This document shows, piece by piece, positions 42,309 to 45,186 of a stretch of 64,000 bases of DNA. The position numbers and the translations under genes were made by a program. Position 1 is the first letter of the stretch. Each line of letters opens with the position of its first letter. The notes under the pieces are model-generated. The model worked only from the letters and a program-made list of their open reading frames with translations, searched no databases and was not told where the DNA came from. Location of the stretch: assembly GCA_016219005.1 (NCBI GenBank), contig JACRCN010000067.1, positions 1-64,000 of the forward strand. The letters run 5' to 3'. This DNA comes from Deltaproteobacteria bacterium (GTDB lineage Bacteria > Desulfobacterota > Desulfobacteria > Desulfobacterales > SpSt-501).

Positions 42309-42998
42309 TCAAGGGTCAACGGGGCAGGGCGCCAGGGCGTCCCAACCCATTTCTGCCGCCAGCCAATGTGGCAGCAGCATGATGGACCGCGAGAAATCCA
42401 GGCCTGCGTTTTCGATGCTGTCCCTCAACGGCTTCGAAAACGGACCTGCCGCTCGAATGATGGACGTGAGCACCACGGGTGCGATTGCGGCCGGCCGATG
42501 ATCGTGTGACGGCCGGCAAGCGGCGGGGTCCGAACTGACAAAATGCGTTCGGCAGATGAGCGGTCTTACCGGGTAGGCACTGCAGACACGGTCCACCAAC
42601 AGGGGACAGCAGGGGTCGTAGCCGGAAAGATCCGGGCCGTGAGCGGGGGCGGCCGATGTCGGCGGGCCCCGCCGGGCAACCTCCCACGCAAGCCACTGCT
42701 GGGTTCGCCGCCGGAGGTCACTGGTCTGCCGCGGTGAGAATCTGCGTTTGATGTATTGCCCCAAGGCGTGGGCCTCGGAAATATTGGTCTGAATATGCTG
42801 CCCGCAGCACTTGCAGCAGCCGCGTTTACAGCTGGGGACCACGCCTTCTTCGCGGCGTAACTGAACGAGCTCGCGGGAGGCGGCATCATCCACCGAAGCA
42901 TACACGCGGATCACCAGGACTTCTTGCGGCGTCACAGGGATATCCGCACCGCAGGCTTCGGCGCTTATGGCGCTATTGTCACCCGCAACGGATTTCAT
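42309..42998 (-). CDS. YkgJ-family cysteine-cluster protein
   Basis: A 229-residue cytoplasmic protein with the Cys-cluster signature of the YkgJ family: SCKRGCCKCC near residue 56 and CPLLVDRVCSAYPVRPLICRTH further on. The pattern suggests a bound metal or iron-sulfur cluster; the function is unknown. The start is uncertain: the open frame begins at 43088, but the ATG at 42998 gives the more usual length. The gap to the RNase gene is 20 bases, so they may be co-transcribed. Confidence 0.8.
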   Translation of the reverse strand: MKSVAGDNSAISAEACGADIPVTPQEVLVIRVYASVDDAASRELVQLRREEGVVPSCKRGCCKCCGQHIQTNISEAHALGQYIKRRFSPRQTSDLRRRTQQWLAWEVARRGPPTSAAPAHGPDLSGYDPCCPLLVDRVCSAYPVRPLICRTHFVSSDPAACRPSHDHRPAAIAPVVLTSIIRAAGPFSKPLRDSIENAGLDFSRSIMLLPHWLAAEMGWDALAPCPVDP

Positions 42999-43102
42999 GA
43001 TTCTCACTTTCTGAGCAGACCCCTGCGCTTGACGCCTTCTCTGAAAAACGAAAGCGGCTGTTGGCGGCTTGGGCGTCAAGGCGGGCACTTCATTGGAAGC
43101 GG

Positions 43103-43843
43103 TTATGGATTCACCCCCGCCTCATGCAACAGCGCCTTGCGGCTCGATTCGGAAAGACCGTAGCCTTCGATTTCGGCCTTGAGGGACTCGGCGGTGCCGT
43201 TGCGGCCGAGGTATCCGTTGACGCGCGCCGCCGCGGTGGAGTTCATCAGCCCCTCGTCCTGCGGGTAATAGCGCTGCAACTCTTTCAGATACGGCTTGTT
43301 CCCCCTCAGGTAGTACTTCTGGTGATACGCCTCGGCCGGGTAGAATCGGCTGAAGGGGATCACCTCGGTGTGGATCGTTTTCCCCAGCCTGGCCGCCAGA
43401 CGATCGCGGGTTGCGAGTGCCAGGCGCTTCTGCTCATCGCCGTGATAAAATATGACGGCCTTGTACTGCGTGGACCACGACGTGCTGGTCGGATTGTGCT
43501 CCTCCCAGAAGACCTCCAGCAGCTTTTCGTAGGAGATGCGCGCCGGGTCGTAATCGACCTCGAGCGTCTCGGTGTGGTCGCCCAGTTGATGATAGGTCGG
43601 GTTTACCTTCTTTCCGCCGGAATAACCCACCCTCGTTCTGATCACACCATCGAGGACTCCGAACCTGGAGTCCGGGCCCCAGAATCAGCCCAGGGCGAAG
43701 GTGGCCGTTTCGGTTTCGGCCGGCGCGGCCGCATCGATGGCGGGCATCCCGGCGTCCGGGGGCGTCGCTGGGGCGGCGGCCGACTGGCCCGTGCCCAAAG
43801 CGCCAAGCATTGCGAACAATGCAATATGCAGACGACTCATCAT
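43103..43843 (-). CDS. msrA: Selenocysteine-containing peptide methionine sulfoxide reductase A, exported
   Basis: A 246-residue MsrA read through an in-frame TGA at 43685-43687 (residue 53). Around it the protein reads ATFALG-U-FWGPDSRFG, where every MsrA has GCFWG with the catalytic Cys, so TGA replaces that Cys codon exactly. Downstream are VIRTRVGYSGG, STQYKAVIFYH and FYPAEAYHQKYY. No other Cys is present in the protein. The ATG at 43843 has GGAGG seven bases upstream and gives a signal peptide (cleavage near QSAAAP). A SECIS-like hairpin follows the TGA. Sec-MsrA enzymes are known; the family reduces methionine-S-sulfoxide, here probably in the periplasm. Without readthrough, a start at 43645 would make an inactive fragment. 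Confidence 0.88.
43654..43673 (-). promoter_or_regulatory. Bacterial SECIS element of msrA
   Basis: In the mRNA, 11 nucleotides after the UGA, GGACUCC-AGGUUC-GGAGUCC forms seven perfect base pairs with a six-base loop. Distance and the AGGU loop start match the E. coli fdhF SECIS (loop AGGUCU, hairpin 11 nt after UGA), which SelB recognises. Confidence 0.82.
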
Positions 43844-44106: not shown

Positions 44107-45186
44107 ATGTTCAGCACTTTTGGGACCCTGTTCAGGGCGAGCACGTTTGGCGAATCCCACGGCCGGGGCGTGGGGGTCGTAATCGACGGATGCCCCGCCC
44201 GTCTGCCGTTAACCGAGGCCGGCATCCAGCCTCAGCTCGACCGCCGCAGACCCGGCCAGAGCCGGCTCACCACCGAGCGGGAGGAGGCCGATCAGGTCAC
44301 CATTCTGAGCGGCACCCAAAACGGGCTCACCCTGGGGACCCCCATCGGGCTGATGGTGCCCAACCGGGACCAGCGCCCGGCCGACTACGAGCACCTGGAC
44401 ACGGCCCCGCGGCCGTCCCATGCCGATTTCACCTATCAGGCCAAGTACGGCATCCGGGCTGCGAGCGGCGGGGGCCGTGCGAGCGCGCGCGAGACCATCG
44501 GCCGGGTGGCGGCTGGGGCGGTAGCCGAAATATTCCTGCAGGAGTGCTGCGGCGTCGAGATCGTCGCCTGGGTGAGCGCGGTGGGCGAGCTGGACGCTCC
44601 GCCGGTCGATGCACTGCGCATCGACCGGGCGGCCGTGGACCAAAACGCTGTCCGCTGTCCCCACGCGGAAACGGCCGTGCGCATGATCGCGGAGATCTCC
44701 CGGGCGCGGGAGGCGGCCGATTCGGTAGGCGGCGTGGTTACCTGTGTCTGCCGCAACGTACCCGTCGGGCTGGGGGAGCCGGTATTCGGCAAGACCGAGG
44801 CCCTGCTGGCCCAGGCCATGCTGTCCATCCCGGCCACCAAGGGCTTCGAAATCGGCGCGGGCTTCTCCGGCGCGCGCATGCGCGGCAGCCGGCACAACGA
44901 CCCCTTCGTGATGAAAGACGGGCGGCTGGGCACCCTGACCAACCGCAGCGGCGGCGTGCAGGGCGGCATCACCAACGGAGAACCGATCGTCTTCCGGGTG
45001 GCCTTCAAGCCGCCGTCCACCATCGGCCAGGCCCAGGCGAGCGCAGACTTCGACGGGCAACCGGTGACGCTGGAAGCCCGGGGCCGCCACGACCCTTGTG
45101 TCGTCCCGCGCGCGGTGCCCATCGTGGAGAGCATGGCGGCGCTGGTGCTGGCCGACTTGGTATTGATCCAGAAGATGCGGGGGTGA
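44107..45186 (+). CDS. aroC: Chorismate synthase
   Basis: A 359-residue protein with chorismate synthase signatures: [17 protein letters not shown] near the N terminus, [33 protein letters not shown] in the centre and [17 protein letters not shown] at the C-terminal end. It makes chorismate from EPSP with reduced FMN, the last shikimate-pathway step. It stands alone; no other aro gene is in the window. Confidence 0.97.

Follow-up and report, generated by a model that had tools for sequence, protein, structure and literature searches.

The 64,000-nucleotide stretch of Desulfobacterales DNA analyzed here (the window) carries on its minus strand an msrA gene for a 246-residue methionine sulfoxide reductase A (MsrA; 43103..43843) whose frame contains one TGA, and this msrA is very likely a genuine selenoprotein gene of an already known family. 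With high confidence, we regard its product as a methionine-S-sulfoxide reductase of the 1-Cys type that carries a catalytic selenocysteine (Sec) and is probably exported. Read from the ATG at 43843, with a GGAGG six nucleotides upstream on the minus strand, the frame comprises 52 codons, meets the TGA at 43685..43687 (minus strand, residue 53), and stays open to the stop ending at 43103. According to both the translation and the relatives, the TGA occupies the catalytic position of the G-C/U-FWG motif (ATFALG-U-FWGPDSRFG), and no Cys occurs elsewhere in the read-through translation. Mechanical ORF calling returns a 180-residue ORF starting with GTG (43103-43645) and devoid of the active site. 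In all these points, the frame, the position of the UGA at the catalytic Cys, the lack of other Cys residues, and the truncated gene-caller product, the translation agrees with the initial annotation. The MsrA match runs full length through the TGA: the catalytic domain PF01625 covers residues 46 to 185 (43289..43708, minus strand; Pfam match, 1.8e-43), and the MsrA_helical domain PF20939 covers residues 196 to 232 (43148..43258, minus strand; 28.0 bits versus a cut-off of 23.7), the latter family bearing the title "Selenoprotein methionine sulfoxide reductase A, helical domain."

Among 30 matches to solved structures, the six best align through the helical domain, up to residue 235 (best E value, 8.8e-54). 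Four of these six we take to be structures of the Clostridium oremlandii MsrA (CoMsrA). The other two, 4LWJ and 4LWM, are CoMsrA according to PMC4479559, in which CoMsrA is also reported to be reduced by glutaredoxin, not thioredoxin, and to be able to dimerize through its catalytic residue; the helical domain is required by CoMsrA according to PMC4333827. Pfam and structure matches together make this 1-Cys selenoprotein of C. oremlandii the closest characterized relative of the MsrA in the window. Both have Sec at GUFWG, no resolving Cys, and a C-terminal helical domain, but the present protein differs in its signal-like N terminus and its host group. Sec-MsrA is a listed bacterial selenoprotein family (PMC13188914). 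The view that a Sec-only MsrA lacking a resolving Cys would be unusual was rejected, since it corresponds to the described CoMsrA type and since 31 of 47 TGA loci (two of them duplicates) have no Cys after Sec; in 23 of the 47, Cys is absent altogether, with the predicted N termini also counted. By homology, the Sec would attack methionine-S-sulfoxide, and, because the protein has no resolving Cys, the oxidized intermediate would need an outside thiol or other reductant, or a dimer, to be reduced, as reported for CoMsrA with glutaredoxin.

The N terminus, up to about residue 24 (43772..43843, minus strand), forms a probable Sec-type signal peptide according to a hydrophobicity heuristic, with a guessed cleavage site; the 10-residue hydrophobic mean, computed from the second ATG, is 2.6, and the MsrA is thus probably exported. 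The exported form had also been called unusual, yet signal-like N termini recur among the TGA loci: a 10-residue mean of at least 2.0 near the start, a threshold set by eye, is found in 15 of 45 distinct ones. Such N-terminal signals are indications only, because start codons were set by a simple rule. RRxFL-like Tat motifs were seen at the N terminus of the Sec-MsrA homologues L033, L201, L203, and L207, and lipobox-like motifs in L041 and L198.

The TGA is conserved among relatives. A homologue at E<=1e-50 is found in 35 of 291 sampled genomes of the class, and all 35, own genome included, contain exactly one internal TGA; weaker MsrA homologues lie outside this listing. Five of the 35 matches gave no locus, and in the 29 class loci examined by position the TGA is always at the catalytic site. 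In the best 80 of 144 loci from named genomes, the codon at the site is TGA in 17, which span several phyla, and TGC or TGT in 63; the two nearest of the named-genome loci, L029 and L030 from Desulfobacterales metagenome-assembled genomes (MAGs), have TGA. The alignment of homologues suggested by the initial annotation thus favors its reading. Within the genus (six genomes), a TGA-msrA match at E<=1e-50 is present in the own genome (G000), G263, and G284, and none is found in G055, G148, or G271; shared contig numbers and hit coordinates lead us to equate G263 and G284 with G001 and G002, the sources of L029 and L030. The neighborhood of msrA is also retained in L030, with a Cys-rich ORF downstream (42309..43088, minus strand; 57% identity) and a divergent ORF identified by eye as aroC, chorismate synthase (44107..45186, plus strand; 84% identity). 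We take the Cys-rich ORF to be YkgJ-like; it had no NCBIfam match at E<=0.001. A second, Cys-containing MsrA is encoded elsewhere in the same genome (L002, G000:C81, 607-1167), where the frame runs 344 residues past the Cys, and it is possibly a fusion.

A 7-bp hairpin with loop AGGUUC had been described eleven nucleotides past the UGA, and it is present at 43673-43654 (43654..43673, minus strand): GGACUCC-AGGUUC-GGAGUCC begins at the 12th nucleotide past the TGA, leaving an 11-nt spacer. The msrA element resembles the E. coli fdhF-type bacterial SECIS in lying shortly past the UGA and in its small apical loop but differs in the AGGUUC loop, and it is a putative SelB site. SelB with Sec-tRNA would bind this hairpin and insert Sec. 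For a 24-nt segment that begins at position 10 past the codon, we compared the fold with 1,000 synonymous refolds per locus that kept the gene's own codon usage; this segment was picked after two wider-window results were seen. A hairpin beyond protein constraint is supported with the 24-nt window (z -3.08, p 0.007), whereas the wider ones are not significant for this locus, neither 42 nt against synonymous nulls (z -1.43, p 0.083) nor 48 nt against a dinucleotide shuffle (z -0.83). By group, the 42-nt windows give a mean z of -0.74 for TGA loci versus 0.04 for Cys loci (p 0.006).

With the 24-nt window, the 18 TGA loci have a mean z of -2.53, with 12 of the 18 at p<0.05, versus a mean of -0.10 for 64 Cys loci, with 3 of the 64 at p<0.05 (Mann-Whitney p 2.9e-9; 2.2e-7 when the Cys group is limited to the 37 loci numbered from L031 to L082); because the loci are related and kinship is uncorrected, the hairpin and TGA-locus tests are not independent. 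This comparison covers 82 of 84 loci, leaving out L004 (site unaligned) and L003 (contig end). The mean is likewise -2.53 for the 29 class loci, among which L029 and L030 recur, and 23 of the 29 reach p<0.05 (500 draws). For covariation, 35 of the 47 windows were aligned in one register, excluding the L001 register type (L001, L029, and L030 plus the copies L195 and L194), one identical copy, and six with a bulge (L051, L053, L054, L055, L057, and L063); the msrA hairpin of the window itself has the shifted register and lies outside this count. Paired cells make up 82.0% versus 71.0 in shuffles (0/500), the covariation score is 0.267 versus 0.072 (0/500; slid versions, <=0.094), and 26 cells have changes on both sides versus 10.8 (0/500). 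Two of the five measures show no excess over shuffles, namely, the number of pairs changed at both positions (2 versus 2.0) and that of further pair types (8 versus 6.5, 55/500). The three inner pairs are invariant, and the two outer pairs are formed in 11 and 20 of the 35 windows. The three Cys loci with a hairpin above the synonymous nulls are the TGC genes L031, L034, and L035 (p 0.001, 0.028, and 0.037), in which Sec may have given way to Cys recently, leaving a SECIS behind.

The genome encodes much of the selenium machinery. In profile searches, selA was found on C55 (609 bits), and two selB matches exceeded the cut-off (C89, 378 bits; C100, 281 bits), as did two selD matches (C100 and C79). 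Each selD gene has one internal TGA near the N terminus, presumably at the active-site position, and the sequence that follows could fold. The SelB on C89 is 77 to 81% identical to congener SelBs. A survey of 35 genomes, 16 with TGA-msrA (from the 17 TGA loci less L037) and 19 hand-picked from the 63 Cys loci, found SelB above cut-off in 14 of the 16 versus 4 of the 19 (Fisher p 1.3e-4) and tRNA-Sec above cut-off in 13 of the 16 versus 7 of the 19 (p 0.016); three of these seven Cys-genome tRNA matches score 49 to 51 bits and come without SelB above cut-off. TGA conservation, the hairpin test, and selA, selB, and selD in the genome together support the Sec-MsrA with SECIS claimed at the outset. 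The search for the four sel genes, also suggested by the initial annotation, succeeded for selA, selB, and selD and found no canonical tRNA-Sec in the assembly, where the tRNA(UCA) present looks like the selC* type; the refuting condition stated there, absence of selABCD and tRNA-Sec, is therefore escaped only in part.

The tRNA-Sec search of the own assembly, with 150 of 945 candidates scored, returned two hits above cut-off and no canonical tRNA-Sec. One hit (47.1 bits) was rejected, being a tRNA-Leu by ARAGORN; the other, C100:12719-12808 (55.5 bits), is the assembly's one confident tRNA-Sec-like gene. Manual reading gives it an 8-bp acceptor, AGGGGCAA/TTGCCCCT, with A1:U72, the discriminator T (U73), and the anticodon TCA (UCA); ARAGORN draws the acceptor with 7 bp in this copy and 8 bp in the copy of congener G001. 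A 4-bp T-stem with a bulged A fits the C100 tRNA by eye; the ARAGORN drawings of the two copies disagree on the T-arm. Downstream of the tRNA come first a divergent SelB, which shares 32% identity with the copy on C89 and has no SelB-wing_2 match at E<=0.001, and then a CysRS of 436 residues, to which the cysS model matched only to position 384 of 466, suggesting that it lacks the anticodon-binding domain; a full-length CysRS is also present, on C75. The cassette spans 12719-16067 on L109 (G000:C100:1-20000). Directly upstream of it are genes for a C_GCAxxG_C_C redox protein and a protein with a rhodanese domain, and the TGA-containing selD lies about 3 kb downstream.

The C100 tRNA thus looks like a selC* tRNA-Cys(UCA), with selB* and then a truncated cysS* downstream, and the reading as an ordinary tRNA-Sec was dropped after its structure had been read and compared with reviews. 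A selC*-selB*-cysS* cassette of Desulfobacterales was reportedly described by Mukai et al. 2017. The gene order, the UCA anticodon, A1:U72, U73, and the CysRS shortened C-terminally, on the anticodon-binding side, are shared with that cassette, but here it lies on C100, away from msrA, canonical selC was not seen in the assembly, and Cys insertion is putative. The reviews PMC7609411, PMC9437257, and PMC11415595 describe the arrangement for Desulfobacterales, and PMC9437257 posits that it serves selenoprotein synthesis under selenium scarcity; CysRS* is called uncharacterized in PMC11415595, whereas PMC7609411 reports an in vivo analysis. Congener G263 has such a tRNA and a SelB* 74% identical over 473 residues, plus a canonical tRNA-Sec.

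Canonical tRNA-Sec is present in 4 of 6 congeners. At E<=1e-9, the higher-scoring type (74 to 78 bits) is the only one in G284, G148, and G055, and no tRNA-Sec is found in G326 (85% complete) or G271 (80% complete). A search with the canonical G001 tRNA gave no match in G000; its 98% identical counterpart in G002 sits at a contig end. In G001, an integrase-like ORF (a tyrosine integrase, by eye) follows within about 60 nt, both genes occupying about 2127-3357 of L191 (G001:C140), and a partial tRNA copy is found about 16 kb farther on (G001:C140:31539-31599), so this locus looks like an integration site. The integrase-like ORF, the partial copy, and the contig end in G002 make an assembly break at the canonical tRNA site plausible. 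The gene adjoining the canonical tRNA in two congeners is absent from G000 and equally from G055 and G148, which nevertheless have the tRNA, and this absence is therefore no proof of a gap. Since selA and a second selB are retained, we infer that the canonical tRNA-Sec is probably missing from the assembly through a gap.

The presence of this cassette raises the question of what the msrA UGA encodes. The selC* tRNA-Cys(UCA), SelB*, and CysRS* might read it as Cys, either always or under selenium shortage, giving a Cys or mixed Sec/Cys MsrA, a reading we consider rather unlikely. It is suggested by the type of the C100 tRNA and by the accompanying divergent SelB and shortened CysRS, as the reviews describe for Desulfobacterales. 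However, the genome retains selA and the other selB, which would make little sense without tRNA-Sec, and the MsrA hairpin recurs in congener G284 (87% complete), whose one tRNA-Sec at E<=1e-9 is of the canonical type. SelB*, moreover, may not read the msrA hairpin, because it has no SelB-wing_2 match. A facultative UGA, decoded as Sec via SelB when selenium is present and as Cys via selC*, SelB*, and CysRS* when it is scarce, appears comparably improbable.

Explanations that deny decoding of the TGA fare worse and were rejected. A single internal stop in one draft assembly is compatible with a sequencing error or with a genuine stop codon in a gene undergoing decay, but the TGA recurs in every one of the sampled class homologues and in 17 of the best 80 named-genome loci, and both the frame and the helical domain are intact past it, making error or pseudogene decay extremely improbable. 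The selenium genes lie on other contigs and could be contamination of a host without Sec decoding, given an assembly contamination figure of 4.67% and a 402-bp overlap at 96.5% between the ends of C100 and C81. Nevertheless, the tetranucleotide profiles of C89, C79, C55, and the first 60 kb of C100 correlate at 0.71 to 0.80 (mean) with other stretches and at 0.72 to 0.78 with the window, and the C89 SelB closely resembles its congener counterparts, so contamination is very unlikely. The last 12.5 kb of C100 (L112, G000:C100:60001-72498) has a deviating profile (mean correlation, 0.42) and is a possible island.

Selenocysteine at the catalytic position is the preferred reading of this MsrA, whose active site is lost under plain ORF calling. 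At E<=1e-50, every one of the 35 homologues from the sampled class has the UGA form. That msrA shares its genome with selC*, selB*, and cysS* makes concrete the question of which UGA genes a Cys-inserting cassette serves. If the facultative reading were true, a single gene would yield an envelope repair enzyme in two catalytic versions.
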